Source: a virus. Taken from it: a stretch of 29,642 nucleotides of DNA. This document shows, one piece after another, positions 4,145 to 24,305 of this stretch. Position numbers and translations under genes: made by a program. Each line of letters starts with the position of its first letter. The stretch's first letter is position 1. The notes under the pieces were generated by a model. It was given only the letters and a program-made list of their open reading frames with translations. It had not been told where the DNA came from and did not search any database. The stretch is from positions 1 to 29,642 of IMG/VR virus record IMGVR_UViG_3300007640_009548. One strand, written 5' to 3'.

Positions 4145-4160
4145 AAGTTATTAAAAAATA

Positions 4161-4192: not shown

Positions 4193-4215
4193 CGTACAAA
4201 TAAAATAAGTTATAT

Positions 4216-6419: not shown

Positions 6420-6437
6420 AATAATTTCGTATATTAT
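6407..6437 (+). promoter_or_regulatory. TTTCGTATATT element directly at a start codon
   Basis: TTTCGTATATT at 6425-6435 matches the string seen at 4180, 13291 and 25223. Here it abuts the ATG at 6436. As a -7 element it would start transcription a few bases inside the ORF, and the -33 position reads GGG instead of TTG. It may serve the downstream gp44 gene or not be a promoter at all. Confidence 0.2.
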
Positions 6438-7615: not shown

Positions 7616-7617
7616 TT

Positions 7618-7863: not shown

Positions 7864-8277
7864 ATGAAAAATATCTTTGATTGGTTAAAATGTATTAATA
7901 CTTCAAAACCACCTGTTAAGTCATTTTCTGATAAAGATTGGGAGGTTTGGAACAGCTATATGATACACAGGTTCATTAGTATGAACCCAGATTATATTGA
8001 AGTTGTTAATTATGTACAAGACTTTCCACCACAGGAAAAACAAATGATTTATTCTATTTACAAAGAATTTATTCCCAAAAACAATAAGTGGAACAAATAT
8101 ATTAAATCTAAAGTAAAACAACCTAATAAGGATTTAATAGACCATATCAAAAATTATTTTGAATGTTCTTCCAAAGAAGCAAAAGAATATATAAATATAT
8201 TGGCTACCCCAGAAATTAGTCGTATATTAACGAATAGAGGGTTAGACAAAAAAGAAATAAAACCATTATTAAAATGA
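7864..8277 (+). CDS. 62: clamp loader small subunit (gp62-like)
   Basis: At 137 aa it is somewhat shorter than T4 gp62 (187 aa). The stretch WEVWNSYMIHRFISMNPDY matches the gp62 pattern WxxxNxxMIxRFxSM, followed by FPPQEKQMIYSIYKEF and a helical C-terminus. It forms the clamp-loader complex with the gp44 ATPase subunits. It is separated from gp44 by one small unknown gene and ends with an ATGA overlap into the next gene. The gp62 call rests on the MIHRF motif and location. Confidence 0.82.
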   Translation: MKNIFDWLKCINTSKPPVKSFSDKDWEVWNSYMIHRFISMNPDYIEVVNYVQDFPPQEKQMIYSIYKEFIPKNNKWNKYIKSKVKQPNKDLIDHIKNYFECSSKEAKEYINILATPEISRILTNRGLDKKEIKPLLK

Positions 8278-8501
8278 CAAAAGAATTATACACTATGCTA
8301 AAAAAATCTGCTGAAGCAGATCAAGCAAAAGCATTGTTATCATTAGATCTATTAGGCAATCATGCAGTAGGCATTGGAGATCATTCAACTGAAGATTTTT
8401 ATAAAAATGCTGAGGAAGCACTTATGATGTTAGTTGATGCTGAAGATAGATTAGAAATTTTAGAAAAATACTTTAACTTATCAATACAAATCAATGGGTG
8501 A
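8274..8501 (+). CDS. hypothetical 75-aa helical protein
   Basis: I do not recognise this protein. It is short, acidic and mostly helical (EADQAKALLSLDLLGNH, then NAEEALMMLVDAEDRLEILEKYF). It starts in an ATGA overlap with gp62 and overlaps the next gene by 8 bases, so it is part of the replication operon. No metal-binding or catalytic motif is visible. Confidence 0.68.
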   Translation: MTKELYTMLKKSAEADQAKALLSLDLLGNHAVGIGDHSTEDFYKNAEEALMMLVDAEDRLEILEKYFNLSIQING

Positions 8502-10158: not shown

Positions 10159-11607
10159 ATGAATAAAGATTTTAAATATCTTCCTAAAGATCAAAGGAAG
10201 AAAATACTCTTAATATGTGATGATATTAGAGTACATTCTGGAGTAGCTACTGTGGCTAGAGAAATAGTAGTTAAAACCGCCCAACACTTTAACTGGGTTC
10301 AGATGGCAGGAGCTATTAAACACCCGGAAAAAGGAAAAAGATTAGAATTATCTCAAGACACAGATAAAAATACAGGTCTTAAGGATTCTTCTGTATTACT
10401 CTATCCAGTAGATGGCTATGGAAATCCACAAATATTAAGACAAGTAATTCATCTTGAAAAACCTGATGCTATATTTTTAATTACGGATCCTAGATATTTT
10501 ACTTGGATTTTTAATATGGAACAAGAAATTCGTAAAAAAATTCCAATTATTTATTTAAATATATGGGATGACTACCCAGCTCCTATGTACAATAGACCTT
10601 ATTATGAGGCGTGTGATTTATTAATGGGTATTTCAAAACAAACCGTAAATATTAATAAATTAGTACTTCAAGAAGCAGGGAAAGATAAAATATTTAAATA
10701 TGTTCCTCATGGAATTAATTCTCAATTCTATTTCCCCATTACAAAAGAAAAAGGAGATTTAAAAGCTTTTAAAGAATTTAAAAAACAATTTTTTGGAGAT
10801 ACAGATCCTAAGTTTGTAGTATTTTTTAATTCAAGAAATATTAGAAGAAAACAAATCCCAGATGCTATGATGGCATTTAGAACATTTTTAGATTCTTTAC
10901 CTAAAGAAGAAGCACAACAATGTTATTTTATTCTACATACAGAATTGGTTACTGATGCAGGAACTGATTTGGAAAAAGTAAAAGAATATTTATTTGATGA
11001 AGAATATGAGGATAATATTAAATTTTCACTTAATAAATTATCTTCCCAACAATTAAATTTTTTATATAATCTTGCTGATGTTCAAATTTTATTAACATCA
11101 AACGAAGGTTGGGGTTTAACTATTACTGAAGCTATGTTTTCTGGTACCCCAATTATAGCAAACGCAACTGGAGGAATGCAAGATCAAATGAGATTTGAAG
11201 ATGAAAATGGAAAATGGTTTGTACCTGATGCTAATATACCTTCTAATCATAGAAAAACTTTCACTAAACATGGTGAATGGGCTTTCCCAGTATATCCTAC
11301 TTCAAGATCTATCCAAGGATCACCTCAAACTCCTTATATTTTTGATGATAGATGTAAATGGGAAGATGCAACTGAACGTTTAAAAGAAGCTTATGCTTTA
11401 GGTAGAGAAGAATTAAAACGTAGAGGATTAAAAGGTAGAGAATGGGTTATGTCCGAAGAAGCAGGATTTACATCTGAAAATCAGGGAAAAACAGTTATAG
11501 AAGCTATAGATGAATTATTTGAAACTTGGAAACCAAGAAAAAAGTATGAAATTATAAATGCTACTAAGTATAAAGGAAGATTTTTAAATCATAAAGTTAT
11601 ATATTAA
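10159..11607 (+). CDS. GT4-like (GT-B fold) glycosyltransferase
   Basis: The 482-aa protein starts with KILLICDDIRVHSGVA, a GT-B N-terminal strand and glycine loop. It continues with VPHGINSQFYFP, VVFFNSRNIRRKQ (start of the C-terminal Rossmann domain) and NEGWGLTITEAMFSG, which contains the E-x7-E nucleotide-sugar motif of GT4 retaining enzymes, then TPIIANATGG. It transfers a sugar from an activated donor; donor and acceptor are not predictable. At about 480 aa it is longer than a typical GT4 (370-400) because of an extra C-terminal stretch. It is followed after 1 base by another GT-B enzyme. Confidence 0.88.
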   Translation: MNKDFKYLPKDQRKKILLICDDIRVHSGVATVAREIVVKTAQHFNWVQMAGAIKHPEKGKRLELSQDTDKNTGLKDSSVLLYPVDGYGNPQILRQVIHLEKPDAIFLITDPRYFTWIFNMEQEIRKKIPIIYLNIWDDYPAPMYNRPYYEACDLLMGISKQTVNINKLVLQEAGKDKIFKYVPHGINSQFYFPITKEKGDLKAFKEFKKQFFGDTDPKFVVFFNSRNIRRKQIPDAMMAFRTFLDSLPKEEAQQCYFILHTELVTDAGTDLEKVKEYLFDEEYEDNIKFSLNKLSSQQLNFLYNLADVQILLTSNEGWGLTITEAMFSGTPIIANATGGMQDQMRFEDENGKWFVPDANIPSNHRKTFTKHGEWAFPVYPTSRSIQGSPQTPYIFDDRCKWEDATERLKEAYALGREELKRRGLKGREWVMSEEAGFTSENQGKTVIEAIDELFETWKPRKKYEIINATKYKGRFLNHKVIY

Positions 11608-11608
11608 T

Positions 11609-12898
11609 ATGAGTAAACCAAGATTTGTTATAAGCTGCCCTTTTGACACATATAGTGGATATGGAGCAAGAAGTAGAGATTTAGCTAAAGCTATAATTGA
11701 ATTAGATAGATATGAAGTTCAACTTTTACCCCAAAGATGGGGAGAAACTTCTTGGGGGTTTTGTAATGATCACCCTGAATGGAAATTTTTATTAAAACAT
11801 ACTGTACCCCAAGATTGGCAAAAAACCCAACCTGAGATTTGGATGCAGATAACAATTCCTAATGAATTCCAACCTGTAGGAAAATATAATATAGGATGTA
11901 CTGCAGGCATTGAAGCCACAGTTTGTAAACCCGAATGGATAGAGGGACTAAATAGAATGAATATAAATTGGGTTTCATCTAATTTTGCTAAAGAAAATTT
12001 TGAAAAGATTAGATTTGATAAAACAAATTCCCAAACAAACCAAGTAGTAGGACAAGTAAAATTAGAAAAACCAATCCATGTTGTGTTTGAAGGTGCTAAT
12101 TTAGATATTTATAAAAATTTAAAACCCACGGAAATTAAAACCCTTAATTTAGAAGATATAAAAGAAAAATTTTGTTATCTTTTTGTAGGGCATTGGATGC
12201 AAGGTGATTTTGGTCATGATAGAAAGAATGTTTCATTACTTGTAAAATCATTTTATGAAACCTTTAAAAATAAAATGAACCCCCCTGCTTTAATTCTAAA
12301 ATCTTCAGTTGGGGTTGCTTCTTATATAAGCAGAGAACAAATTTTAGATAGAATTAAAAAAATTAGAAAATCAGTAAATTCTAATAAATTACCTAATATT
12401 TACTTATTAAGTGGAGAATTTGATGATTATGAAATGAATGAATTATATAATCACCCAAAAGTAAAAGCTATGGTTAGTTTAACTAAAGGTGAAGGATTTG
12501 GAAGACCCTTATTAGAATTTAGTTTAACTGGGAAACCTATAATAGCATCTGGATGGTCGGGTCATACTGATTTTCTCCATTCAAATAATGTAATTTTGAT
12601 TCCTGGTGAATTAGAAAAAGTCCATAAAAGTGCAGCTAATAATTGGCTAATTGAGGATGCAGAATGGTTTAAACCAAGTACCCCCCATGTAGGTCAAGCT
12701 TTTGTTGATGTATTCAAAAAATATAGTACATATTCTAAAAAATCATCTAAACAAAAAACTTATGCTAAAAATAACTTTAGTTGGGGAAAAATGAAAGAAT
12801 TAATAGATAATATATTAATTAATAATATTCCTGAGTTTCCAAAACAAGTTGAATTAAATTTACCTAAATTAAATTTACCTAAATTACAAAAATTATAG
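11609..12898 (+). CDS. GT4-like (GT-B fold) glycosyltransferase
   Basis: This 429-aa protein has the GT-B opening SCPFDTYSGYGARSRDLA, a central VFEGANLDIY linker (like the VPxGVDxxxF of GT4) and the E-x7-E motif in KGEGFGRPLLEFSLTG followed by KPIIASGWSGHTDFL. It differs from the preceding GT, so this is not a recent duplication. The C-terminus ends with a short tandem repeat LNLPK-LNLPK-LQKL, probably unstructured. It lies 1 base after the upstream GT and 1 base before a zinc-ribbon gene. The acceptor is unknown. Confidence 0.87.
   Translation: MSKPRFVISCPFDTYSGYGARSRDLAKAIIELDRYEVQLLPQRWGETSWGFCNDHPEWKFLLKHTVPQDWQKTQPEIWMQITIPNEFQPVGKYNIGCTAGIEATVCKPEWIEGLNRMNINWVSSNFAKENFEKIRFDKTNSQTNQVVGQVKLEKPIHVVFEGANLDIYKNLKPTEIKTLNLEDIKEKFCYLFVGHWMQGDFGHDRKNVSLLVKSFYETFKNKMNPPALILKSSVGVASYISREQILDRIKKIRKSVNSNKLPNIYLLSGEFDDYEMNELYNHPKVKAMVSLTKGEGFGRPLLEFSLTGKPIIASGWSGHTDFLHSNNVILIPGELEKVHKSAANNWLIEDAEWFKPSTPHVGQAFVDVFKKYSTYSKKSSKQKTYAKNNFSWGKMKELIDNILINNIPEFPKQVELNLPKLNLPKLQKL
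12854..12883 (+). repeat. 15-bp tandem repeat at the 3' end of a glycosyltransferase gene
   Basis: TTAAATTTACCTAAA occurs twice head to tail (12854-12868 and 12869-12883), in frame, coding for LNLPK twice. It may vary in copy number by slippage without disrupting the frame. Confidence 0.75.
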
Positions 12899-12899
12899 T

Positions 12900-13319
12900 A
12901 TGAATTTTGATGAATTGAAAGAGTGTACACGTTGTGGTTCTGATGCTTGTTATAAACAAGAAGTAACTAAAGATATTTCTATTGAATTATGTTATGGTTG
13001 TGGTTTCCAATCCAACTCGTTAATGAAAAAAGGATCAGATTTTTTTAATGAACAATGGGAACTTCTTCCTGAATTATATAAAGTATTAATGGATGAAGAA
13101 GAAGAGACAGGTAAAGTTTGGATGCCTACTACTATAAATCTTAAAGATAAAGGAATGGTTTTTGCAAATGGAGGTGGTAGAGATAATTGGCATTGGTCAG
13201 CAGTTAAATCTATTCCAGATGAGGAACAAGGATATAAGACTGATATGTCTACTATAAAACACTATAAAGAACGTGATTTTATTGAAGCTCTTTCGTATAT
13301 TGGAATATTACCAGAATAA
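12900..13319 (+). CDS. zinc-ribbon protein of unknown function
   Basis: The 139-aa protein has an N-terminal zinc ribbon (CTRCG, then CYGCGFQSN; two CxxC knuckles about 20 residues apart) and a C-terminal part with FFNEQWELLPELYK, VWMPTTINL and GRDNWHWSAVKSIP. I recall similar short proteins from marine T4-like phages, without a known role. It is a non-sugar gene inside the glycosyltransferase run, 1 base after the GT and 2 bases before the next. A TTTCGTATATT string lies inside its 3' end (13291-13301). Confidence 0.75.
   Translation: MNFDELKECTRCGSDACYKQEVTKDISIELCYGCGFQSNSLMKKGSDFFNEQWELLPELYKVLMDEEEETGKVWMPTTINLKDKGMVFANGGGRDNWHWSAVKSIPDEEQGYKTDMSTIKHYKERDFIEALSYIGILPE
13273..13303 (+). 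promoter_or_regulatory. possible internal promoter before the GT-A gene at 13322
   Basis: TTTCGTATATTGG at 13291-13303 repeats the string found at 4180 and 25223. GTG is found 20 bases upstream of its TATATT (13273-13275). It lies within a coding region, 20 bases before the next start, and could boost the downstream sugar genes; coding constraint makes chance possible. Confidence 0.2.
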
Positions 13320-13321
13320 GT

Positions 13322-13945
13322 ATGAAAATAAGCTATGCAATAACTGTTTGTAATGAATTTGTAGAAATACAAAATTTACTTTCATTTTTATTAAAAACTA
13401 AAAGAGATAAAGATGAAATTGTAGTTCTTTACGATAGTAAAAATGGAGATCTAGAAGTTGAAAATTATTTAAGATCTCATTCTATTAATGGGGAATATAC
13501 TTGGCATAAAGGAGAATTTAATAATCATTTTGCAAACTGGAAAAACCAATTAAATTCATATTGTTCAGGGGATTTTATTTTTCAAATTGATGCTGATGAA
13601 ATCCCTAATGAGATTTTAATAGGATATTTACCAGAAATATTGGGTAATAATCCTGATAATGAAGTATATTTAGTTCCTAGAGTAAATACCGTATCTGGTT
13701 TAACCCAAGAGTATATTACTAAATGGAGATGGAATGTTGACGAAGAAGATAGAGTTAATTGGCCTGACTATCAGTGGCGTATTTACAAAAATAACCCTGA
13801 AATTAAATGGGTAAATAGGGTACATGAAAGGTTAGAGGGTTTTAAAACTTATGCTTTAATACCTCAAACACCTAATTTGGCTTTATTTCATCCAAAGACT
13901 ATAGAAAGACAAGTAAAACAAAATAATTATTATAATACTTTATAA
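13322..13945 (+). CDS. GT2-like (GT-A fold) glycosyltransferase
   Basis: The 207-aa protein begins SYAITVCNEFVEIQNLL, the usual GT-A opening, has EIVVLYDS and the metal-binding Asp90-Ala-Asp92 (QIDADEIP, the DxD motif), then WRIYKNNPEIKWVNRVHE, typical of glycosyltransferases that glycosylate lipids or proteins. It is shorter than the 250-300 usual but includes all core parts. Predicted to be cytoplasmic. It follows the zinc-ribbon gene by 2 bases. Confidence 0.85.
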   Translation: MKISYAITVCNEFVEIQNLLSFLLKTKRDKDEIVVLYDSKNGDLEVENYLRSHSINGEYTWHKGEFNNHFANWKNQLNSYCSGDFIFQIDADEIPNEILIGYLPEILGNNPDNEVYLVPRVNTVSGLTQEYITKWRWNVDEEDRVNWPDYQWRIYKNNPEIKWVNRVHERLEGFKTYALIPQTPNLALFHPKTIERQVKQNNYYNTL

Positions 13946-13947
13946 AG

Positions 13948-14370
13948 ATGAAAGCGGACAGTGATGTAAAAAATGTATTAACAGAAGACGGCTTACCAAA
14001 AGAAGCTTTAGCAGTGTTTCACCAATATGAAAATAAAACAACAGTTAATCTAGAAGATTTAAGATCTGAATTAGGAATGACTTCGTGGGCTGTTCGAATT
14101 GCTTATAATGATAGATTTGGTGGTGTGATTATCCAACAACAATCTGGGGAGGGTAATAGAAAACATTATCATCCTCATGCAGATGAAAATTGGGTTATAT
14201 TAGACGGTGAATGGGAATGGTGGATAGAAGGTAAAGGAACTCAAATTGTAAAAAAGCATGATATAGTAGTAGTGCCAAAAAATGTTTGGCATCATATTAA
14301 ATGTGTAAAGGGACCTGGAGTAAGGTACGCAATTACACAACCTGATGTAGAACACGTATATGAAAAATAA
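13948..14370 (+). CDS. cupin-domain protein, possibly in sugar synthesis
   Basis: The 140-aa protein has a clear cupin: motif 1 HYHPHADENWVILDGE (metal ligands H-x-H and E) and motif 2 VVVPKNVWHHIKCV (P...H). It ends with a short tail. Single-domain cupins in sugar clusters often act as isomerases, epimerases or binding proteins. The next gene (an SDR at 14360) overlaps its 3' end by 11 bases, which suggests the two work in one pathway. The precise reaction cannot be told. Confidence 0.83.
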   Translation: MKADSDVKNVLTEDGLPKEALAVFHQYENKTTVNLEDLRSELGMTSWAVRIAYNDRFGGVIIQQQSGEGNRKHYHPHADENWVILDGEWEWWIEGKGTQIVKKHDIVVVPKNVWHHIKCVKGPGVRYAITQPDVEHVYEK

Positions 14371-15016
14371 AATTGTAATAGTAGTAGGAGGAAGTAAAGG
14401 AATAGGTTTAGGAGTTGCCGAAGAATTTCGCAAACGAGGTGCTCAAGTTTATTCTATAAGCAAATCCAATTGCGATATTTCATCTATAGAAGATATCGAT
14501 AAGTATTTTAACCAGTTTAAAAAAATTGATATTTTAATAAATAATGCTGCTATAAATTATTGCAAAACTATAGAAAATATTTCTATAAATGAATGGAGAA
14601 AAGTTGTAGATACAAATTTAACTTCGTATTTTTATATTATAAAAAGATGTATACCTCTGATGAAAAAAGGTAGCAAAATAGTAAACATATCTAGTATAGC
14701 TGGAAGGAGTAAAAGCTTAGTAAGTGGGGTACACTATACTTCCTCTAAAGCAGGAATAATAGGACTAACAAGACAGTTAGCTCAAGAATTAGGACCTAAA
14801 GGGATAAATATAAATTGCATATGCCCTAGTCAGACATTAACCCCAATGCTAAAAAGTTCAATGACGAAAAAGCAATTAAATAATTTAGAAAAAAATATCC
14901 CTTTAAGACGTATTGCACAAGTTAGTGAAATAGTAAAACCTATTCTATTTTTATGCTCCGATGATGCCTCATATATTCATGGAGTATGTTTAGATGTAAA
15001 TGGAGGACAATTATGA
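14360..15016 (+). CDS. short-chain dehydrogenase/reductase
   Basis: The 218-aa SDR has the cofactor motif GGSKGIGLG, NNAA, catalytic Ser in NISSIAG and Tyr-x3-Lys in YTSSKAG, then GININCICPSQTLTP and the C-terminal DVNGGQL. This is the FabG/PtmA type of NAD(P)H-dependent oxidoreductase. SDRs of this kind occur beside NeuA-like cytidylyltransferases in nonulosonic acid loci (e.g. PtmA with PtmB). The gene ends in an ATGA overlap with such a cytidylyltransferase. A role in making a modified sugar is inferred. Confidence 0.9.
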   Translation: MKNKIVIVVGGSKGIGLGVAEEFRKRGAQVYSISKSNCDISSIEDIDKYFNQFKKIDILINNAAINYCKTIENISINEWRKVVDTNLTSYFYIIKRCIPLMKKGSKIVNISSIAGRSKSLVSGVHYTSSKAGIIGLTRQLAQELGPKGININCICPSQTLTPMLKSSMTKKQLNNLEKNIPLRRIAQVSEIVKPILFLCSDDASYIHGVCLDVNGGQL

Positions 15017-15678
15017 AACAAGGTAAATTAACAGCTGTAGTTGCAGTAAGAAAAGGTTCACAAAGAATTCCTAATAAAAATATTACACCTTTTGGTGATA
15101 GTAATTTATTAGAAATAAAATTAAATTTATTAAAAAAAGTTGAAACTATAGATGAAATTATAGTAAATAGTGACTGTGATTATATGTTAACAATAGGTAA
15201 AAAATATGGATGTTTAACACATAAAAGAGAAGCCCACTATGCTAGTTCAATAGTTAATAATAGTGATTTTCATGAACATATAGCTAAAACAACAGATACA
15301 GATTTCATATTTTTAGCTCCTGTGTGTTCGCCTTTTGTCACAATAGAATCACATAATTTTGCTATAGAACATTTTTTAAATAGTAATTATGATAGTTTAA
15401 CCTCAATTGATATAATAAAAAATCATTTATGGTTAAATAATAAACCATTAAATTATAATTTAGATAATATTCCTAACAGTCAAGATTTACCTAATGTTAA
15501 AAGATTAAATTATGGTATATCTCTAATAACAAAAGAAGCTATGCTTAAAAATAAAAGCTTAATAGGTGATAATCCTGGTTTTTATGAATTAGACCATTTT
15601 GAATCAGTAGATGTGGATACCCCATTTGATTTTTTTGTGGCAGAACAAATATATAAAAAATATTATAAAAATAAATAA
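15013..15678 (+). CDS. NeuA/KdsB-like CMP-sugar cytidylyltransferase
   Basis: The start at 15013 (221 aa) is chosen because its ATG overlaps the SDR stop as ATGA and leads directly to the family start. An upstream ATG at 14986 would add nine residues out of register with it. The protein has AVVAVRKGSQRIPNKNI, the CMP-sialate synthetase N-terminal signature for CTP binding (here RKGSQRIPxKN), FLAPVCSPF, and a C-terminal ESVDVDTPFDF that matches the NeuA DIDTxxDF metal site. It activates an acidic sugar such as a nonulosonate to its CMP form. No NeuB-type synthase is seen in the window, so the sugar may come from the host. Confidence 0.88.
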   Translation: MKQGKLTAVVAVRKGSQRIPNKNITPFGDSNLLEIKLNLLKKVETIDEIIVNSDCDYMLTIGKKYGCLTHKREAHYASSIVNNSDFHEHIAKTTDTDFIFLAPVCSPFVTIESHNFAIEHFLNSNYDSLTSIDIIKNHLWLNNKPLNYNLDNIPNSQDLPNVKRLNYGISLITKEAMLKNKSLIGDNPGFYELDHFESVDVDTPFDFFVAEQIYKKYYKNK

Positions 15679-15685
15679 ATAAATT

Positions 15686-16660
15686 ATGATGAACATTGAA
15701 AATATAGGTCATAAATTTACTAAAATAGTAAATACACCTGAGTGGAAAGAATTACAAGATAAATACAATAAATGCGACGATATTTATGTATTAGGGCATG
15801 GTGGTAATATGGGGGTAGCTGATCATACTGCTGTTGATATGACCAGATTATCAAATGGCACTAAAAATGCAATGTGTCCAGGTAGTTGTGTTGTGGCAAC
15901 TTCATTAATAAATGATACTAGTTTTGATCAATGGATGGTAGCATGGTTACAACAAAGAACATCTACTAGAACTAAGAGTCAAATGAAAAAATCATTAGTA
16001 TACGGTATTTCATCATCAGGTAGATCTAAAGATGTAAATAAAGCGTTACAATGGGCTGCGGATAATGGTATGGAGGTTTGTATAATAACAGGAAATGAGA
16101 TAGTAGAAAAAATTAAGGGACTCACACAAATTGTATTAGGAGTAGATTATTACCATACAGCTGAGTGTTTAACTTTATTACTTCAATATCAATTAACACA
16201 TGGTTCTGGAAAAGAATGCCCACCAATTGGAAAAAATAGTCCTGAAGAATTAGAAAAATTAAATTGGAATAAAGGTATTCGTAAACACTCATATCCGGAT
16301 GAACTAATCAATTTAGGGATAGATTTTGATGGTGTAATACATAAAAACAGTAAAGGGTTTTTTGATGGGACAATTTATGATGATCCTATTGAAGGGGTTG
16401 AAGATGCACTTAAAAAACTAGCAAATAAATATACATTAGTATGTTATACATCCAAAGCAAAACCTGATAGAATGTTAATAAATGGTAAAACGGGAACTGA
16501 ATTAGTTTGGGATTGGTTAAAAAAACATAAATTTGACAAATACATTTCTAAAGTAACATCTGAAAAACCAAGAGCAGCAGTTTATATTGACGATAAAGCC
16601 ATTAGATTTGATAGTTGGGATCAATGTTTAAAAGAATTAAAAGACTTAAAAATAATATGA
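15686..16660 (+). CDS. SIS-domain (GmhA-like) isomerase fused to a HAD phosphatase
   Basis: The 324-aa protein joins two domains. Residues about 1-195 form a SIS domain similar to phosphoheptose isomerase GmhA: YVLGHGGNMGVADH (like GNGGSAADA), SLVYGISSSGRSKDVNKAL, CIITG and YHTAECLTLLL. Residues from about 208 form a HAD domain: Asp213-Phe-Asp215-Gly-Val (DFDGV), CYTSKA, KPRAAVYIDDKA. The pairing suggests isomerisation of a heptose- or other sugar phosphate followed by dephosphorylation. The GmhA-like part does not prove heptose as substrate. ATGA overlap joins it to the epimerase downstream. Start could also be the next Met (15689). Confidence 0.82.
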   Translation: MMNIENIGHKFTKIVNTPEWKELQDKYNKCDDIYVLGHGGNMGVADHTAVDMTRLSNGTKNAMCPGSCVVATSLINDTSFDQWMVAWLQQRTSTRTKSQMKKSLVYGISSSGRSKDVNKALQWAADNGMEVCIITGNEIVEKIKGLTQIVLGVDYYHTAECLTLLLQYQLTHGSGKECPPIGKNSPEELEKLNWNKGIRKHSYPDELINLGIDFDGVIHKNSKGFFDGTIYDDPIEGVEDALKKLANKYTLVCYTSKAKPDRMLINGKTGTELVWDWLKKHKFDKYISKVTSEKPRAAVYIDDKAIRFDSWDQCLKELKDLKII

Positions 16661-17562
16661 GAATTTTAATTACTGGTGGCTGTGGGTTTTTAGGTACCAA
16701 TTTATATAATAGGCTAAAAGTTAATGGATATTATGTTAAAACACTTGACATTAAGCCTGAAGCAGATTATAGATTTGATATTTCAAAATATAAGAATTTT
16801 AACCAAATAAATGAAAAATTTGATATTATTTACCATTTAGCTGCCCAATCTGGAAGTCATAGATCATTATTAGAACCTGAGTTAGATTTAGAATGGAATG
16901 CTAAAGGTACATTAAATATTTGTACTTATGCTAAAAAAACAAAAGTTAAAAAAATAATTTATACATCTACAATGGCAGTATATGGAGAAGGAAATTGGAT
17001 AAAGGAATCAAATCCACTTAATCCTCTTTCTAATTATGGCATTTCTAAGCTTTATGGTGAGAATTGTATTAAACAATTTTCCCAATTTGGTATAGATTAT
17101 ACAATATTTAGAGTATTTAACACCTATGGACCACACCAAAATTTAAATAATGATAAACAAGGAGTTGTAGCAGTATTTCTTTCTCAAATAATTAATAATA
17201 TTAATCCTATTAAAGTAACGGGTTCATTACAAAGATATAGAGATTTAACCTATATAGAGGATAACATAGATGCTTTACTTTTAGGTTTGAAAAAAGAAAC
17301 ATCATTAGAGACTTATAATATTTGCAGTAAAGTAAAAATTACAATTAAAGAAATAATAGAAACTCTAATTAAAGTTAGTGGTAAAAACAGAGAAAATATT
17401 ATAATTAAAAATATAGGTAACCATGATGGAGATCAATTTGCCTGTACTGGGGATAATGAAAAATTAAAAACTTTAGGTTGGAATCCTAATTATGATTTTG
17501 AAAAAGGATTAAAATTATTTTATGAATATGGTAAAAAAGTATTAAATAATAATATCAAATAA
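16657..17562 (+). CDS. NAD-dependent sugar epimerase/dehydratase (extended SDR)
   Basis: The 301-aa protein starts at 16657 in an ATGA overlap; an ATG at 16615 would add residues inside the upstream gene. It opens RILITGGCGFLGTNLY (NAD-binding GxxGxxG), has YHLAAQSG, YTSTMAVYGEG, the catalytic Tyr-x3-Lys in NYGISKLYGE and FRVFNTYGPHQ, all typical of UDP-glucose 4-epimerase-like extended SDRs. Length suits a full enzyme. The substrate is a nucleotide sugar, identity unknown. Confidence 0.9.
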   Translation: MRILITGGCGFLGTNLYNRLKVNGYYVKTLDIKPEADYRFDISKYKNFNQINEKFDIIYHLAAQSGSHRSLLEPELDLEWNAKGTLNICTYAKKTKVKKIIYTSTMAVYGEGNWIKESNPLNPLSNYGISKLYGENCIKQFSQFGIDYTIFRVFNTYGPHQNLNNDKQGVVAVFLSQIINNINPIKVTGSLQRYRDLTYIEDNIDALLLGLKKETSLETYNICSKVKITIKEIIETLIKVSGKNRENIIIKNIGNHDGDQFACTGDNEKLKTLGWNPNYDFEKGLKLFYEYGKKVLNNNIK

Positions 17563-17564
17563 AT

Positions 17565-18260
17565 ATGAAACCAGTAATAATATTAACAAAAGGCCCTAGT
17601 GCAAGATTTTTACCTCTTTCAGACAAATATGATGTTGCAACTGTTAATAATGCAATATGGATGCATAAGACACCAAAATGGGCTTTTTTTAATGATATTG
17701 AACCTATGGAACAAATGGAAGATGATGATTTTAAAGAAGTTAAACATATGATAGTACCTTCATTTATGCATAGCCAACATAACCCAAGGATACAATCTTT
17801 TAAAGGAATAAAAAAAATTAATCAAAATTTTTCTTATGTTCATTGGACTAAACTAAGTGAACTTTTTCCTAATCGTTATAATCATATAGGTTTTAACATA
17901 TATGAATTACATCCTGGGGATAATCAAGAATTTAATGAACAAGCTCCAAGTTTAGATGAATGGCCCATGACTACAACTCAAACAGCAACATTATGGTTAT
18001 TAAAATATGAAGGTATTAGAGATATTATTATAGCAGGGGCAGACCCAGGTAAAGGATATCATCAATTATTTATTGACCGAGCTAAATACAATAAAGACGG
18101 TACACCTGCATTTAATGGTCAAAGTACTGCCCCTCAACCTGTTGAAGTTTACCAAAAATGTTGGGATCAAGGTATAAAATGGGCAAATCATTATGGGGCT
18201 AAAATACGACACATAAATAATGTTTCAGATGATGAGTTAATAAATTTGGGGATAAATTAA
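17565..18260 (+). CDS. possible MAF/DUF115-like or GT42-like transferase
   Basis: The 231-aa protein starts VIILTKGPSARFLPLSDKYD, then ATVNNAIW and PKWAFFNDIEP, and later TTTQTATLWLLKYEGIRDII with AGADPGKG. The layout (GPS near the N-terminus, later TTTQTATLWL and AGAD) recalls MAF/DUF115 motility-associated glycosylation proteins and the GT42 sialyltransferases. These transfer nonulosonic acids, which fits the NeuA-like gene two genes upstream. I cannot prove it; a Rossmann-like fold without transferase activity is possible. Gap of 2 bases to the epimerase and 10 to the next gene. Confidence 0.55.
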   Translation: MKPVIILTKGPSARFLPLSDKYDVATVNNAIWMHKTPKWAFFNDIEPMEQMEDDDFKEVKHMIVPSFMHSQHNPRIQSFKGIKKINQNFSYVHWTKLSELFPNRYNHIGFNIYELHPGDNQEFNEQAPSLDEWPMTTTQTATLWLLKYEGIRDIIIAGADPGKGYHQLFIDRAKYNKDGTPAFNGQSTAPQPVEVYQKCWDQGIKWANHYGAKIRHINNVSDDELINLGIN

Positions 18261-18270
18261 AATTTAAATA

Positions 18271-19065
18271 ATGAAAAAAATAGTTTTATTTTGTAAATCC
18301 TATAGAGGAGATATTGAGAGATTTAAGGTATTAAGTGAAAGTGTATTAAAACATAATAAAGATAATATTCCTTTTTATGTTTGTATCCCTAAATCAGATA
18401 ATGATTTATTTTATTCATTTTTTAATAAAGAAAATCAACATATTGTTTTTGATGAAGACATTACAATTGAAACCAATCAACAGTCCCATTTTACTCAGCA
18501 ATTGTTTAAAATGGAATTTATGAGAACCCAAGATATAGCAGAACATTATTTTTTAATGGATTCTGATATGTACTTTATAAGAGATTTTACCCAAGATGAG
18601 TTTTTTGCTGGAGATCTCCCATATATGACTATGCATGAATGTAAAGACTTTCTTGAATATTCTTATAATATGTTTGGTGATAATAGAACAAATGAATGGT
18701 TTCTTTCAGAAAGACTTCCTATAATGGAACTTTTTAATAGAAAAGGTAAACCTTATGATTATTCAGGTTCAGCTAACTTATATATTGCTAATGTTTTTAA
18801 AGAATTATTTAAAAATTACTGCCAACCAAATAATTTAACTTTTTTGGATTTATTAAAGCATTGTGCTTCAGAAAATACATGGTACGGAGAATATGCTTTA
18901 GCTTCTAAAACACCCTTTGCTCCCTGTGCTCCTATGTTTAAAACTTTTCATACTCAATGGCAATATAATCACCACAAAAGTTTAGGAATAACAGAGGAAA
19001 TTATATCAAAAAATTATTTAGGAATCACAATGCAATCAAATTGGGGGTCTCCCCTAAAATACTAA
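18271..19065 (+). CDS. DUF6492-like glycosyltransferase
   Basis: The 264-aa protein opens IVLFCKSYRGDIERF and has FYVCIPKSD, then YFLMDSDMYFIRDF with a D-S-D in the place of the DxD metal motif. It has a GT-A layout similar to the DUF6492 family of probable glycosyltransferases. A lone CAPCAPMFK segment and a basic-aromatic tail are seen near the C-terminus. No membrane segment is visible. It follows the MAF-like gene by 10 bases and precedes the acetyltransferase by 12. Confidence 0.68.
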   Translation: MKKIVLFCKSYRGDIERFKVLSESVLKHNKDNIPFYVCIPKSDNDLFYSFFNKENQHIVFDEDITIETNQQSHFTQQLFKMEFMRTQDIAEHYFLMDSDMYFIRDFTQDEFFAGDLPYMTMHECKDFLEYSYNMFGDNRTNEWFLSERLPIMELFNRKGKPYDYSGSANLYIANVFKELFKNYCQPNNLTFLDLLKHCASENTWYGEYALASKTPFAPCAPMFKTFHTQWQYNHHKSLGITEEIISKNYLGITMQSNWGSPLKY

Positions 19066-19077
19066 ATTTAATAATAT

Positions 19078-19554
19078 ATGAAAAATTATTTTAAACATTC
19101 AACCGCTATCATAGACGAAGGAGCAGAAATTGGAGAAGGAACTAAAATATGGGCATTTGCTCATATTTGTCCTGGAGCTAAAATTGGGAAAAATTGTGTT
19201 ATTGGAGAAGGAGTATACATAGGTCCTAATGTAGAAGTAGGAGATAATTGTAAAATCCAAAATCATTGTTTAGTTTACGAAGGAGTAACACTAGAAGACC
19301 AAGTATTTTTAGGCCCAAATGTGGTAACTACTAATGATTTTATCCCACAAGTTGGGGGTGATTGGAAAAATAGTAATAGATTTAGAACTACCTTATTTAA
19401 AAAAGGAGCTTCTGTTGGGGCTAATTCAACCATCATATGTGGAATTGTATTAGAAGAAAATTGTCTAGTAGGTGCCGGTTCTGTAGTTACAAAAAATGTT
19501 CCTAAAGACTGTTTAGCATATGGTAATCCAACTCAAATTAAAAGAAAAAAATAA
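19078..19554 (+). CDS. left-handed beta-helix acetyltransferase for sugars
   Basis: The 158-aa protein has hexapeptide repeats ([LIV]-G-x4) throughout: IDEGAEIGEGTKIW, PGAKIGKNCVIGEGVYIG and VEVGDNCKIQNHCL, ending VVTKNVPKDCLAYGNP. That ending is characteristic of WbpD, FdtC and WxcM N-terminal acetyl-CoA-dependent N-acetyltransferases, which acetylate amino-sugars of nucleotide sugars. It should form a trimer. It implies an amino sugar in the pathway; no aminotransferase is seen in the window, so that step may be elsewhere or from the host. Confidence 0.92.
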   Translation: MKNYFKHSTAIIDEGAEIGEGTKIWAFAHICPGAKIGKNCVIGEGVYIGPNVEVGDNCKIQNHCLVYEGVTLEDQVFLGPNVVTTNDFIPQVGGDWKNSNRFRTTLFKKGASVGANSTIICGIVLEENCLVGAGSVVTKNVPKDCLAYGNPTQIKRKK

Positions 19555-19557
19555 AAT

Positions 19558-20283
19558 ATGCTATTATCCACATTAAATTACAATCAACCAGAATTAACTG
19601 ATAATTTAATTACTCAACTAAAACGTGATATTACTTTTGATCAACATGAATTAATGGTGGTAGATAATGGTTCCACTAAAGAACTAGCTAAATCTACTAC
19701 TCACAAACTTCCTGAAAATTTATTTTTTGGTGGGGGGTTAAATATTATCCTAGATTATTTTCTCAGTACAGACCATGATTATTTTATTTTATTTAATAAT
19801 GATTTAATTTTTCATGGTCCTCGTGTTTTAGAAAATATGTTAAAAGAAGTAAAAGAAAATAACTTAGATTTATATTCCCCTTCTATTACAAACTCAGGTA
19901 TAGGGCAATGTCATTGGAGACAAATGTGGAATTGGGGTACAGGTACCATTAGAGAAGTTGGATTCATAGATTTTATGTGTCCAGTATTTAGTAGAAAAAT
20001 GGCTGAAACTATAAAAAGTTTTCCTAATGAATTATTTTTAGGGTGGGGTCCTGATTTTTATGCTGGTATTATAGCTGAAGAAAATAATTTAAAAATGGGG
20101 GTAAGTGATAATATTACTTTAACCCATTTAGTAGGCCAAACTTTTAAAAGTGGGGCTATTGAAGTAAAAGAAAGTGATTTTTGTCAACAAGCAGATGGGA
20201 ATATGCATAGATATTTTTTAAATTCCCCTATGAAAGATAAGTTTTTATCTCTTAGAGAAAAAAGTTCTAATTATATTGCATGA
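19558..20283 (+). CDS. GT2-like glycosyltransferase
   Basis: The 241-aa protein opens LLSTLNYNQPELTDNLI (GT-A first strand), has MVVDNGST and FILFNNDLIF, where NND replaces DxD, and LYSPSITNSGIGQ, WNWGTG, GWGPDFYAGII. This order is seen in rhamnosyltransferase-like GT2 enzymes. The substrate is unknown. The next gene starts inside its stop (ATGA). Three bases separate it from the acetyltransferase upstream. Confidence 0.83.
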   Translation: MLLSTLNYNQPELTDNLITQLKRDITFDQHELMVVDNGSTKELAKSTTHKLPENLFFGGGLNIILDYFLSTDHDYFILFNNDLIFHGPRVLENMLKEVKENNLDLYSPSITNSGIGQCHWRQMWNWGTGTIREVGFIDFMCPVFSRKMAETIKSFPNELFLGWGPDFYAGIIAEENNLKMGVSDNITLTHLVGQTFKSGAIEVKESDFCQQADGNMHRYFLNSPMKDKFLSLREKSSNYIA

Positions 20284-21119
20284 TTACACATTGTATAAGT
20301 ACATATAGAAATTTAAATTATCTAAAACTAGCTGTTGAGTCAGTCAGAAAGTACTCTTATTATAAAGATGCTCCATTTATTATTCATTCTGATAGATCTA
20401 ATAATGATGGAACTAATGAGTGGCTCTTAAATAATAGTGAAAAATATAACTTAACTCTTATTATTAGAGATCTAAATCCTTCAGGAATTGGTTCGGGAAT
20501 GAATGTTTGTGCAGAAAATGTAGAAACAGAATATATTAATTTTCTACATTCAGATTTTTATGTAACACCTAATTGGGATCTGGAGTTAATGAAAATTCAC
20601 CAAAAATATCCTAATAAAAAATTATGGGTTAATTCATTTAGAATAGAACCTAATATGTTTAATAATCAGGATAGACCTGGTACTCATTTTGTACCAAAAA
20701 ATGCTTTTGGGGCTTATTATAATGATTTCACTCCTAAACCAATGTTAGAATATGCACAACAATTATCTGAATTGAATGATTTTGAAATACCTAAAGGAGA
20801 AGGAGTATCGGGTATGATTAAAAAAGAAGTATGGGATGAAACAGGAGGTAATGATGATAGATTCGCCCCTACTAGTTGGGATGATATGGACTTATTTTGG
20901 AGAATGATTCAAAATGGAGTTGAATTTATATTACCCTCTAAATCAATAGTTTGGCACTTTGGTGCTAGGGGAAGCCATAGATTAGAGGAAAATAATAACC
21001 AAACCTCTGAGAGACAATCTAAACATGAAAGAATAAATGCCCAGAAATTTTTTGATAAGTGGGGGGGTTTACCTATATTTAACGAATATGGGATGATAAA
21101 TGGAATTAAAAAAATATAA
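20280..21119 (+). CDS. GT2-like glycosyltransferase
   Basis: The 279-aa protein has HCISTYRNLNYLKLAV, SDRSNNDGTNEWL, FLHSDFYVTPNWD (HSD in the DxD place) and SWDDMDLFWRMIQNG, the helix seen in the acceptor region of GT2 enzymes, then WHFGARGSH. It is related in layout to the GT gene at 22001 but not a close copy. It starts as ATGA with the previous gene and is followed by a 27-base A-rich gap. Confidence 0.83.
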   Translation: MITHCISTYRNLNYLKLAVESVRKYSYYKDAPFIIHSDRSNNDGTNEWLLNNSEKYNLTLIIRDLNPSGIGSGMNVCAENVETEYINFLHSDFYVTPNWDLELMKIHQKYPNKKLWVNSFRIEPNMFNNQDRPGTHFVPKNAFGAYYNDFTPKPMLEYAQQLSELNDFEIPKGEGVSGMIKKEVWDETGGNDDRFAPTSWDDMDLFWRMIQNGVEFILPSKSIVWHFGARGSHRLEENNNQTSERQSKHERINAQKFFDKWGGLPIFNEYGMINGIKKI

Positions 21120-21146
21120 AAAAATAATAAAATATTAATAAAAATA

Positions 21147-21995
21147 ATGAATAAAAGTATACTAATAACTGGAGGAGCAGGATTTATAGGTACGAACTTA
21201 GCCAAAAAACTTCTTAAAGAAGGTCATAAAGTAACTGTTATAGATGATTACTCTTCTGGCAAATTTAAAGATAACCATCTAAAAGATGTGCATTATATAG
21301 AGGAAGATATAACTAAAGTATTTGGAAAGTTTGATAAAATTTACCATCTTGCTGCTCTTTCAAGAATCCAACCTTCATTCAATAATCCTGATGAAACTTT
21401 TAGAGTCAATGTGCTTGGCACACAGAAAGTCTTAGAGCTAGCTCGTTGTACCGGTGCTAAGGTAGTTTATGCTGGATCTTCATCTAAGTGGCATGATCCT
21501 CATCAATCTCCATATGCTACTTCAAAATGGTTAGGTGAAGAAATGTGTAAAATGTATAAGAAGACATATGGAATGGATGTTGAAATTGCTAGATTCTATA
21601 ATGTATACGGACCAAATGAAATAATAGACGGTGATTGGGCAGCAGTAATTGGAATATGGAGACGTCAAGTTAGGGATGGTAAAAAAATTACAATAGTAGG
21701 AGATGGTGAACAAAGAAGAGACTTTACTCATGTAGATGATATAGTTGAGGCTTTGTATCGTATAGGATTTAGAAATGAAGTTCATGAAGATGCATGGGAA
21801 TTAGGTACAGGTTTAAACTATTCTATTAACCAAGTTTATAAAATGTTTTTAAAGAGGTACCCACATATTGAAGCAAAGTTTTTACCTGATCAACCTGGTA
21901 ATTATAGAAACACATTAAGAGAAAATGATGATAGTTTAAAAAGATTAAATTGGTCTCCTTCTGATAAATTAGAAAAATACATTAAATCACTATAG
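21147..21995 (+). CDS. NAD-dependent sugar epimerase/dehydratase
   Basis: The 282-aa extended SDR opens SILITGGAGFIGTNLAKKL (GxxGxxG), contains YHLAALSRIQPSF, AGSSSKWHDP and the active-site PYATSKWLGEE (Tyr-x3-Lys), then RFYNVYGPNE, VGDGEQRRDFTHVDD and LGTGLNYSI. It resembles UDP-glucose/GlcNAc epimerases and GDP-mannose dehydratases, at about 30-60 residues shorter than some. The sugar specificity is unknown. Confidence 0.9.
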   Translation: MNKSILITGGAGFIGTNLAKKLLKEGHKVTVIDDYSSGKFKDNHLKDVHYIEEDITKVFGKFDKIYHLAALSRIQPSFNNPDETFRVNVLGTQKVLELARCTGAKVVYAGSSSKWHDPHQSPYATSKWLGEEMCKMYKKTYGMDVEIARFYNVYGPNEIIDGDWAAVIGIWRRQVRDGKKITIVGDGEQRRDFTHVDDIVEALYRIGFRNEVHEDAWELGTGLNYSINQVYKMFLKRYPHIEAKFLPDQPGNYRNTLRENDDSLKRLNWSPSDKLEKYIKSL

Positions 21996-22000
21996 TTAAT

Positions 22001-23047
22001 ATGAAAAAAATTACATTCTGTATTCCTTCTAAAGATAATCTTAGATATTTAAAAAGTAGTATTAATTCAATATTAAAAAATAATTCTTCTGGAGCAGATA
22101 TTATAGTATATGTCGATTCAGATAAAGATGGGACATCTAAATGGTTAGAAAAAAAAGGAATTAAATACTTAAAAAATAACTCTAGTAAACCTAAAGGTAT
22201 AGCTTACGGTTATAACAGGTGTATTGAATTAGCTAAAACTGATATAGTTTGTATGTTTCATGCTGATATGTATATGGCTAAAGGTTTTGATACGGCTTTA
22301 CTTCGGTACATTAAACCTAAGACTGTTGTTAGCGGAACACGAATAGAACCCCCTCTACACCCAGAAGGAAAAGAAAAGATTATTCAAAATTTTGGAATGT
22401 ACCCAGAAGATTTCAAGGTAAAAGTATTTAATGAATTTGTAGATAAATCTATAGTTGAGTTTAAAGATAAAATTACTAAAGGAATATTTGCTCCATGGGC
22501 AATATATAAAAAAGATATTATAGAGATTGGAATGCATGATGAACAATTTCATTCTTACCATGAAGATTCAGATATATTTAATAGATTTATTCTACAAGGT
22601 TATAACCTAATTCAAACCTGGGAAGGATTTGTTTACCATCTTACTTGTAGAGGGGGACAATTCCAAGACGGTATAGAGAAAGTTACTCAAGATAAATCGT
22701 TTCATAATATGAAGATAAATGCTGCTAACCATTACTTAAAAAAATGGGGCAGTTGGATTAAAAATAATGAATTTAGCCACCCTGTTTTAAGTCCTGTTTA
22801 TAGAAAAAAAATCATTATAAATAATGAAAATGCTAATTTAATTTCTTTATATAATTGGTTTAATGAAGGAGAAGATGTAGTTGTAACTATAGATGGAAAT
22901 ATATTTACACAACAAGATTTCCAATATATTACACAATTAAATGATATTATATCTGATAGTGGAGAAATAGGTGAGTTTAAGTTAGGAAATATCCAAATTA
23001 AAATAAATAAAATAGAAGATATCTCTAATCAATTAATAAAAATATGA
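22001..23047 (+). CDS. GT2-like glycosyltransferase with C-terminal extension
   Basis: The 348-aa protein has the GT-A opening ITFCIPSKDNLRYLKSS, IIVYVDSDKDGTSKWL and MFHADMYMAKGFD (HAD near the DxD position), then GTRIEPPLHPEGKEK, HSYHEDSDIFNRFI and VYHLTCRGGQF, as in the GT2 at 20280. A further 70-80 residues from about 270 (VYRKKIIINNENANLISLY) form an unrelated alpha/beta end with no motif I know. That tail may bind the acceptor or a partner. The stop overlaps the next start (ATGA). Confidence 0.83.
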   Translation: MKKITFCIPSKDNLRYLKSSINSILKNNSSGADIIVYVDSDKDGTSKWLEKKGIKYLKNNSSKPKGIAYGYNRCIELAKTDIVCMFHADMYMAKGFDTALLRYIKPKTVVSGTRIEPPLHPEGKEKIIQNFGMYPEDFKVKVFNEFVDKSIVEFKDKITKGIFAPWAIYKKDIIEIGMHDEQFHSYHEDSDIFNRFILQGYNLIQTWEGFVYHLTCRGGQFQDGIEKVTQDKSFHNMKINAANHYLKKWGSWIKNNEFSHPVLSPVYRKKIIINNENANLISLYNWFNEGEDVVVTIDGNIFTQQDFQYITQLNDIISDSGEIGEFKLGNIQIKINKIEDISNQLIKI

Positions 23048-23865
23048 GTATAGGAATTATTGGTCAAGGTTTTGTGGGTAATGCTATTTATCAAAAGTTT
23101 AAGAATTATTATAATATATTAACTTATGACTTGGATGAATCAAAATGTAATTCATCTGAAGAAGAAGTATTTAATTGTGAAATAGTTTTTATATGTTTAC
23201 CAACACCTATGGCGACAGATGGAAAATGTGTTACTACCTTAATTACAAGCACATTAGCTGCTTTAAATACAAATAATAAAACTAAAATCGCTGTAATTAA
23301 ATCTACAGTAATACCTGGTTCAGTTAAAAAATGGAATAAAACTTATGACAATCTTCAAGTAGTATTCAACCCAGAATTTTTAACTGAAGCTAATGCTGTT
23401 GAAGATTATAATAACCAAAATAGAATTATTTTAGGTGGTCCACGTCCTTCAACTACTAAGTTAAAACCTTTATTTTCTAAAGTATTTCCTAAAGCTCATA
23501 TAATTAAAACAGATTCTACTCACGCTGAAATGGTAAAATATTTAACTAATACTTTTTTAGCTACTAAAGTATCTTTTGCTAATGAAATGTATGAAATATG
23601 TGAGGGATTAAATATTGATTATGATAAAGTAGTTGAATATGCTACATATGATGAAAGATTAGGTAAATCACATTGGGCAGTCCCAGGACCAGATGGTGAT
23701 TTTGGATTTGGTGGGCATTGTTTCCCAAAAGATTTATCTGCACTTTTAAGACTCGCAGAAGATCTAGATACTACAGATAATGTGATAAGTGCTGTAGAAC
23801 AAACTAACTATAAAGTTCGCAAAAATAGAAATTGGGAAAAAATGAAAGGAAGAGCAGTAATATGA
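23044..23865 (+). CDS. short UDP-glucose/nucleotide-sugar dehydrogenase without the C-terminal domain
   Basis: The 273-aa protein has IGIIGQGFVGNAI (Rossmann), VFICLPTPMATDGK, AVIKSTVIPGS, VFNPEFLTEANA, the Lys in TFLATKVSFANE and the catalytic Cys226 in GFGGHCFPKD. It is the N-terminal and central part of the UDP-glucose 6-dehydrogenase (Ugd/TuaD) family, which is usually 390-450 aa. It stops about 47 residues after the Cys, exactly where the C-terminal UDP-binding domain would begin. The start of the following gene overlaps the stop (ATGA), so no relic of that domain is present. It may need a partner or work on other substrates. Confidence 0.87.
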   Translation: MSIGIIGQGFVGNAIYQKFKNYYNILTYDLDESKCNSSEEEVFNCEIVFICLPTPMATDGKCVTTLITSTLAALNTNNKTKIAVIKSTVIPGSVKKWNKTYDNLQVVFNPEFLTEANAVEDYNNQNRIILGGPRPSTTKLKPLFSKVFPKAHIIKTDSTHAEMVKYLTNTFLATKVSFANEMYEICEGLNIDYDKVVEYATYDERLGKSHWAVPGPDGDFGFGGHCFPKDLSALLRLAEDLDTTDNVISAVEQTNYKVRKNRNWEKMKGRAVI

Positions 23866-24305
23866 AAAAGTATAGATTAGGATTTACAGCAGGTAACTTT
23901 GATTTATTACATCCAGGTTACATTTATACGTTTGAAGAAGCAAAACGTCATTGTGATAAATTTGTAGTTTTATTACAAAGAGACCCTTCTTTACATAGAA
24001 AATCAAAATATAAACCCGTTATCCCAGCTTGGGATAGATATAAAGGGTTAATGTCGATTCAATATATTGATGAGGTATTTATGTATCAAACTGAAGATGA
24101 ATTAGTTGATTTAATTAAAATTCTAAAACCTGATTTAAGAATATTAGGGGAAGATTATTTAGGAAAACCATTTACTGGAGATGATTTGCCTATTGATGTG
24201 ATTTATACCTCTAGATCCCATGGTTGGTCAACAACTAAACTTAAAGATTTAATTACCCTTCAAACTTTAAAACAAAATCCTGACATTATAAAAAATCAAA
24301 TATGA
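23862..24305 (+). CDS. TagD/RfaE2-like nucleotidyltransferase with a changed HxGH motif
   Basis: The 147-aa start at 23862 overlaps the previous stop as ATGA; an earlier ATG at 23832 would add 10 residues inside the upstream gene. It has FTAGNFDLLHPGYIY, where the usual H-x-G-H reads His17-Pro-Gly-Tyr20, then VIPAWDRYKGL and TSRSHGWSTTKLKD (the usual R-x-x-G-x-S-T-T). This is the cytidylyltransferase family that includes glycerol-3-phosphate and heptose-phosphate (HldE) enzymes. Tyr in place of the second His could lower or change activity. Neighbours suggest a sugar-nucleotide role. Confidence 0.82.
   Translation: MKKYRLGFTAGNFDLLHPGYIYTFEEAKRHCDKFVVLLQRDPSLHRKSKYKPVIPAWDRYKGLMSIQYIDEVFMYQTEDELVDLIKILKPDLRILGEDYLGKPFTGDDLPIDVIYTSRSHGWSTTKLKDLITLQTLKQNPDIIKNQI

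Follow-up and report, generated by a model that had tools for sequence, protein, structure and literature searches.

What does a virus gain from a gene that joins an SIS isomerase domain to a HAD phosphatase domain in one polypeptide, and to which pathway do the two halves belong? The question is raised by a fragmentary virus record of 29,642 bases (IMG/VR record IMGVR_UViG_3300007640_009548, analyzed over its whole length and hereafter called the window), in which such a gene lies among genes for glycan synthesis. The reading that we favor, with a probability of about one half, is that of a bifunctional isomerase/phosphatase that would supply a CMP-activated 2-ulosonic acid for glycans. We infer the activities, their order, the substrate, the product and the biological role from the fusion itself, its intact motifs, its gene neighborhood and the contrast with control loci, all of which were observed directly. 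The features discussed below are collected in Table 1.

Table 1. The SIS-HAD gene of the window, its domains and the adjoining genes.
Feature	Position	Strand	Basis and remarks
Cupin	13948..14370	+	PF07883 8.4e-11; in 15-16/73 loci
Short-chain dehydrogenase (SDR)	14360..15016	+	PF13561 2.4e-50; overlaps both neighbors; in 19/73 loci
CMP-ulosonate-synthetase-like cytidylyltransferase	14986..15678	+	PF02348 2.1e-9
SIS-HAD fusion gene	15686..16660	+	Single open frame, 324 aa, no internal stop; 71/73 viral relatives likewise fused
SIS domain, predicted GmhA-like fold, residues 1-172	15686..16201	+	TIGR00441, model, alignment
Linker, residues 173-202	16202..16291	+	Low model confidence; conserved GSG..CPPIG stretch
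HAD phosphatase domain, residues 203-324	16292..16657	+	D213, D215, T255, K294, D302, D303
NAD-dependent epimerase/dehydratase	16657..17562	+	PF01370 5.3e-46; ATG overlaps SIS-HAD stop by 4 bases (ATGA)
231-aa protein, possible glycosyltransferase by eye only	17565..18260	+	Relative in 9/73 loci

The sequence-only reading had proposed a true fusion in one 324-aa frame, with 'DFDGV' and 'DDK' motifs in its HAD half, and had named a frameshift or read error between adjacent genes among the findings that would refute it. The frame was right in position, strand and length, both motifs are there, and the joining of the two domains was borne out by relatives. Scans of IMG/VR retrieved 73 further viral loci with 58-100% identity, a count that excludes the window's own locus (L021) and is redundant, being reduced to 49 representatives at 92% identity. 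SIS and HAD share one frame in 71 of the 73; of the two others, L071 is clipped by the contig end and L072 has its halves in different frames. A frameshift, read error or assembly join is ruled out by these 71 in-frame relatives. When the window gene was compared with 8 of the 73, whole-gene dN was 0.07-0.36 and dS 0.5-3.2, several dS values being saturated. dN was well below dS in both domains wherever dS was estimable (8 pairs; single-domain dS was inestimable for one pair), and SIS dN was below HAD dN in 7 of the 8 pairs.

The fusion is thus real and conserved, and it is mainly virus-borne. Among named phages, no record spanned 80% of the fusion protein, a search with the SIS part alone gave 5 weak records and a search with the aldolase described below gave none. 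Plasmids yielded partial matches only, none spanning 80% of the protein; a SIS gene on a Rhizobium plasmid clusters with a GHMP kinase and an NTP_transferase-HAD protein, a heptose-type set. The BFVD viral structure library contained one viral protein, A0A516MAU2, with 38% identity (target TM-score 0.81, 202 alignment columns, E 4.9e-17), and besides it just weak matches; with 199 aa, as against 324 in the fusion, it is not the whole fusion as deposited. In cellular genome contigs, a pattern scan with the single protein found no relative and a scan with the alignment found two loci. One of these, L075, is an 8.1 kb contig of a metagenome-assembled genome (MAG) that carries the fusion with cupin, SDR and cytidylyltransferase genes upstream as in the window, and is perhaps viral. 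The other, L076, is an archaeal MAG contig with an unfused HAD gene, 61% identical to the window's, near PF02348, HMGL-like and DHDPS-like genes; in this Thermoplasmatales MAG the order at 4740-8336 is HMGL-like, PF02348, DHDPS-like and small HAD in a row, an unfused counterpart that is either cellular or viral. Profile searches with E up to 1e-10, a limit that would miss more divergent fusions, recovered the fusion only once among 288 genomes from the phylum of the L075 MAG, in that MAG itself, and no fusion in a second phylum (194 genomes), where the centre genome had HAD matches only. Given no named phage or plasmid record and a single MAG contig, the fusion gene is chiefly viral within the collections that were searched. 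A search of defense systems with PADLOC gave no match. Among open-licence papers, we found nothing on this viral fusion or its cassette; an excerpt of one (PMC5332604) refers to NeuA and KdsA encoded by the genome of a marine virus. The sequence-only reading had listed many known examples of the fusion as a second refutation: raw metagenomic sequence does supply them, with 71 fused frames, whereas our searches of named phages, plasmids and print did not.

The SIS half is predicted to have a GmhA-type fold. In the AlphaFold2 model of the fusion (47 sequences, mean pLDDT 85.4, pTM 0.55), the weakest stretches, residues 174-183 and 193-201, both lie in the linker, and the SIS part aligned best by VIA-align 2 with GmhA, the D-sedoheptulose 7-phosphate isomerase (5i01, Z 21.4, rmsd 2.1, 166 residues, 20% identity), followed by DiaA (Z 20.4) and arabinose 5-phosphate isomerase (2xhz, Z 16.5). 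At the level of sequence, the gmhA model TIGR00441 matched residues 24-156 with 8.7e-8 and 32.4 bits against a curated cut-off of 209.45, and PF01380 matched the SIS part with 2.8e-4 and 21.1 bits, under its 25-bit cut-off. The earlier label of a GmhA-like SIS domain therefore stands for the fold and not for GmhA equivalence. Residues were compared in an alignment of 47 rows (A2: the 49 representatives minus L071 and L072, with the window protein standing for the identical L001, and L007, L047 and L061 trimmed), in which H47, D51, S109-S111, S114, E160, T171 and H172 are invariant in 47/47. Of H61, E65, Q172 and H180, which we take to be the metal and catalytic residues of GmhA, H61 corresponds to H47 and E65 to D51, a change from E to D at the metal site that may alter the chemistry; no certain counterparts of Q172 and H180 were found. 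The domain thus shares with GmhA its fold, an SIS phosphate loop and the histidine at the H61 position, but is set apart by its low identity, the missed cut-off, the E65 replacement, the fused HAD domain and the rarity of kinases nearby.

All four HAD motifs (DxD, T/S, K, DD) are present in the second half, with D213, D215, K294, D302 and D303 in 47/47 aligned members and residue 255 being T in 44 and S in 3. Modelled separately (pLDDT 91.0), this domain shows a plain HAD fold with a best Z of 11.0 (3bwv), and a PDB sequence search with the HAD part gave no match. Residues 206-320, which belong to the HAD half and not to the SIS half, match phrog_1238 (4.6e-13), a family of small phage HAD proteins called 'phosphoheptose isomerase', a name that seems misleading for such proteins. 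In the phage records NC_070967 and NC_070829, sites matching only the HAD half are likewise annotated 'phosphoheptose isomerase', which looks like a wrong label.

We then considered the genomic context. The cupin, SDR, cytidylyltransferase, SIS-HAD and epimerase genes all lie on the plus strand and overlap or stand 7 bases apart. They belong to an island of 19 genes (10159-25204) that includes glycosyltransferases, epimerases and a UDP-sugar dehydrogenase, and in which Pfam found neither a sugar kinase nor a condensing enzyme. Known members of PF02348 activate ulosonic acids; the window's cytidylyltransferase has NeuA as its nearest solved relatives (PDB 9t4z, PpNeuA, 4.2e-10) and reached 50.9 bits against the PseF model (cut-off 205.7). 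Pfam and PHROG searches with the 231-aa protein encoded after the epimerase gave no match. In L047 (6001-7434), a cupin homologue is fused after SIS-HAD, forming a natural three-domain chain. Outside the island, the window encodes GroEL (4800-6419, phrog_5725 7.6e-154); by eye, the stretch 3728-6419 also contains a GroES-like gene, ahead of GroEL, and one of Hsp20 type. The window further carries a C-terminal part of a DNA polymerase (408-1373) and two phage clamp-loader genes (6644-8277). This polymerase piece, 321 aa long, may belong to a split enzyme, and a radical SAM/SPASM-type gene (1370-2266) overlaps it, with SPASM above and Radical_SAM just under the cut-off.

The association with CMP-sugar synthesis extends well beyond the window. 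A PF02348-type CMP-synthetase gene was found within 6 kb in 68 of the 73 SIS-HAD loci versus 1 of 80 controls, which were the best 80 of 258 relatives of the window glycosyltransferase at 11609-12898 (mean locus 9.7 vs 11.9 kb); the CMP-synthetase profile was derived from the same loci in which it was counted. The single positive control, L156, comes from the contig that also carries L001, the window's twin, and only one other of these best 80 of 258, L213, shares with it an SDR match. All 5 SIS-HAD loci lacking a CMP synthetase are truncated by contig ends. At 92% identity, the CMP synthetase was present in 46/49 representatives and the aldolase described below in 26/49; Fisher tests applied here take no account of the kinship among loci. 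The CMP synthetase directly adjoins the fusion in 25 loci beyond those with an adjacent aldolase; together with 36 directly adjoining aldolases, this makes 61 of 73 fusions that adjoin one or the other. The contrast between 68/73 loci and 1/80 controls (again the best 80 of 258) points to the cassette as a variable module within a more constant glycan island. Its CMP synthetase also varies: in L023, a gene of CMP-KDO-synthetase type, above two NCBIfam cut-offs (255.1 vs 255; 230.6 vs 193), stands behind the cupin and SDR where other loci have the NeuA-like gene, and at a distance of about 8 kb from the fusion there is a NeuB-type gene with a second CMP synthetase after it.

The most frequent candidate for a condensing step is a pyruvate aldolase of the HpcH/HpaI family, found upstream in 37 of the 73 SIS-HAD loci and in 0 of 80 controls (best 80 of 258). 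It is directly upstream in 36 of the 37 and one gene apart in L041; with start codons chosen mechanically, 35 of the 37 overlap the SIS-HAD start by up to 35 bases or end 0 bases ahead of it, and one ends 54 bases ahead of it. The aldolase of L012 (3061-3747) matched PF03328 with 1.2e-17 and reached 86.5 bits against the HpaI equivalog, below the cut-off of 368.8. Against PDB, a profile of 19 aldolases found 4-hydroxy-2-oxoheptanedioate aldolase (7et8, 1.6e-27) and YfaU (2vws, 1.3e-26), and its relatives there are 2-keto-3-deoxy and hydroxy-oxo acid aldolases. D28, E30, H31, R56, E131 and D156, at positions which we take to be HpaI active-site residues, are invariant in 19/19 of the aligned aldolases (A3, comprising 19 of the 37). 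The viral copies are thus members of the family of YfaU, HpaI and GarL, yet they fall under NCBIfam equivalog cut-offs and stand beside CMP-sugar rather than catabolic genes. Characterized relatives take unphosphorylated aldehydes.

A scan with the aldolase itself gave 75 viral loci, which are not independent of the 73, many contigs being common to both. The fused gene was present in 44, L092 had a SIS part at its cut end and in 30 the retrieved stretch contained no SIS or HAD part, some of these loci being clipped by contig ends and one, L137, having the fusion farther along its contig; the aldolase therefore does not need the fusion. A CMP synthetase was found in 62 of the 75, and in several loci without the fusion, for example L123, the aldolase overlaps the end of the CMP-synthetase gene. 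A quick tree with 71 rows implies at least 7 changes in the presence of the aldolase. One aldolase locus, L125 (4217-10046), also holds a second HpcH-family gene, a small HAD gene and, both recognized by eye, a thiamine-diphosphate-type enzyme and a kinase resembling HldE. Among loci without the aldolase, a gene of the fumarylacetoacetate-hydrolase family (L048, 7586-8236, PF01557 2e-41) comes after SIS-HAD and CMP synthetase; it has relatives in 8 loci and might act on a 2-keto-3-deoxy acid.

Other condensing enzymes were present in some of the same viruses. In the 29.6 kb fragment that constitutes the window, the aldolase profile and tblastn with nine query proteins found no aldolase, KdsA, NeuB, DHDPS or HMGL gene. 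KdsA, NeuB or the aldolase occurred in 42 of the 73 records, leaving 31 in which none of these three families was found; a KdsA match of 14.2 bits in the L057 record was below the cut-off and left out of the count. DHDPS, looked for in 36 of the records as the missing condensing enzyme, was rejected with 0/36. A KdsA-type enzyme lies about 13 kb away from the fusion in L047 and about 8 kb away in L060. L033 combines KdsA-type, NeuB-type and HpcH-type genes with SIS-HAD, three PF02348 genes and a gene of the GT29 sialyltransferase family above the Pfam cut-off, and L073 resembles this set by clusters and family matches. The L033 set fits three parallel CMP-ulosonate routes with SIS-HAD in the aldolase one, a pairing suggested by gene order; since the KdsA-type gene of L033 and L073 lies within the same gene run as the fusion, the pairing of synthase and sugar is not fixed in either. 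Cluster c18 as a whole was rejected as a sialyltransferase, its L033 member being GT29 by Pfam and just four others matching, three of them clearly weaker or marginal. Two side observations may be added: L043 (2028-3398) encodes a protein of about 456 aa in which HAD_2 is fused with NTP_transferase and whose relatives recur near SIS-HAD in 29 loci, and L236 (6833-9637), a viral contig, encodes ahead of KdsA a 934-aa ORF whose start is carboxypeptidase-regulatory-like, as in TonB-dependent receptors, by eye.

In the route that we propose, the SIS domain would convert a ketose phosphate to an aldose phosphate, from which the HAD domain would remove the phosphate to give the free aldose. The HpcH/HpaI-type aldolase, in about half of the relatives, would condense the free aldose with pyruvate to a 3-deoxy-2-ulosonic acid, the neighboring cytidylyltransferase would turn this 2-keto-3-deoxy acid into a CMP-sugar and phage glycosyltransferases would transfer the CMP-ulosonate to a glycan, most likely remodelling the surface of the infected host. 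The order of isomerase, phosphatase, aldolase and CMP synthetase was chosen because the two fused steps then become consecutive. In favor of a CMP-ulosonate route, we counted the CMP synthetases, the aldolases, the scarcity of kinases and the gene sets of L023, L033 and L076. Against it stand the window fragment and the 31 records without a condensing family, as well as the 30 of 75 aldolase loci that do without the fusion and D51 at the position of E65; against the order to which we commit, the KdsA-type enzymes of L047 and L060 would fit that of KDO synthesis. That a fused isomerase/phosphatase, a class II pyruvate aldolase acting on a free aldose and a dedicated CMP synthetase make up one virus-borne CMP-ulosonate route is accordingly offered as a tentative proposal, at odds of less than even.

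The precedent of the KDO pathway suggests a different order, in which the SIS step would be followed by condensation through the aldolase or KdsA/NeuB, then by HAD acting on the ulosonate phosphate and finally by CMP activation, so that the fusion would combine the first and third steps, much as a joined KdsD-KdsC would. KdsD and KdsC are indeed an isomerase and a HAD phosphatase of one CMP-ulosonate pathway, their genes are adjacent in E. coli K-12, and KdsA-type genes occur in the records of L047, L060, L033 and L073; this order may hold where such a gene is present, as in L047 and L060. Neither fusion domain, however, is closest to these enzymes by sequence. In hhalign comparisons, the SIS part is nearer to GmhA (probability 95.8 over 105 columns) than to KdsD (47.0 over 39), whose sequence profile it does not match convincingly, and KdsC gave no alignment with the HAD part, its probability of 0.5 falling in the SIS part. 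The commonest partner is moreover a pyruvate aldolase, often in place of KdsA, and its characterized relatives take unphosphorylated aldehydes. For the loci as a whole, we consider the KDO-like order possible but on the unlikely side. A route to a nucleotide-activated heptose, in which the fusion would be GmhA-GmhB-like and phage or host would supply the kinase separately, seems improbable. The fold of the SIS part agrees with it, the top Foldseek hit of the HAD model, a weak one (E 2.5e-3), was E. coli GmhB, L065 has a weak HAD-IIIA match (19.5 vs 44.6 bits), and an excerpt of PMC1501019 reports SIS and HAD in one gmhA-gmhB frame in M. tuberculosis CDC1551. That frame, according to the excerpt, arose by a frameshift joining adjacent genes in one strain, whereas the viral fusion is kept across diverse viruses. 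In addition, the GmhA cut-off was missed, a GmhB model was absent among the 12 NCBIfam matches of the fusion protein (E up to 1), the ties are to CMP synthetases instead, and sugar kinases were found in just 4 of 49 records (PfkB in 3, GHMP in 1) and nowhere in the 19-gene island, though a host kinase could still serve. The sequence-only reading had argued that a direct fusion implies a product other than ADP-heptose, and this remains the better reading; its framing in terms of GmhA and GmhB proved too narrow, as the useful clue lay outside the gene, in the CMP-ulosonate-synthetase-type neighbor and, in half of the relatives, the aldolase.

Two further alternatives are less likely still. The HAD part could be the sole enzyme, and SIS could serve for binding or as a scaffold, in the manner of DiaA. 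DiaA and GmhA align with the SIS part about equally well (Z 20.4 vs 21.4), and the loss of the GmhA glutamate at D51 would agree with this. The invariance of H47, D51, the SSS phosphate loop, T171 and H172, together with a dN that is lower in SIS than in HAD in most pairs, argues against a mere scaffold and makes this reading quite improbable. A sugar supply for DNA modification by arabinosylation has been considered because AfhF, the arabinose 1,5-diphosphate phosphatase of phage HY126 (9iqw), was one of the stronger hits when the HAD part was searched with Foldseek (E 4.0e-3, 23% identity). By VIA Z, 47 entries outrank AfhF (8.5), kinases are rare and the neighbors are glycan and CMP-sugar genes, and we regard this explanation as scarcely plausible.

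Cellular KDO and sialic acid pathways use PEP-dependent synthases. If the favored CMP-ulosonate route is right, a pyruvate aldolase acting on a free sugar would set the viral pathway apart from these, and phages would carry and exchange whole cassettes, consisting of few and small genes, for activated acidic sugars. It would also correct the label 'phosphoheptose isomerase' on phage HAD proteins. If the more specific proposal with the aldolase is true, an aldolase family familiar from catabolism would here serve synthesis, alongside the KdsA and NeuB routes that some of these viruses carry as well, and the product might be an ulosonic acid not yet described. Acidic sugars of this kind are displayed on bacterial surfaces, where phages use them as receptors, and a phage altering them could thereby block superinfection.
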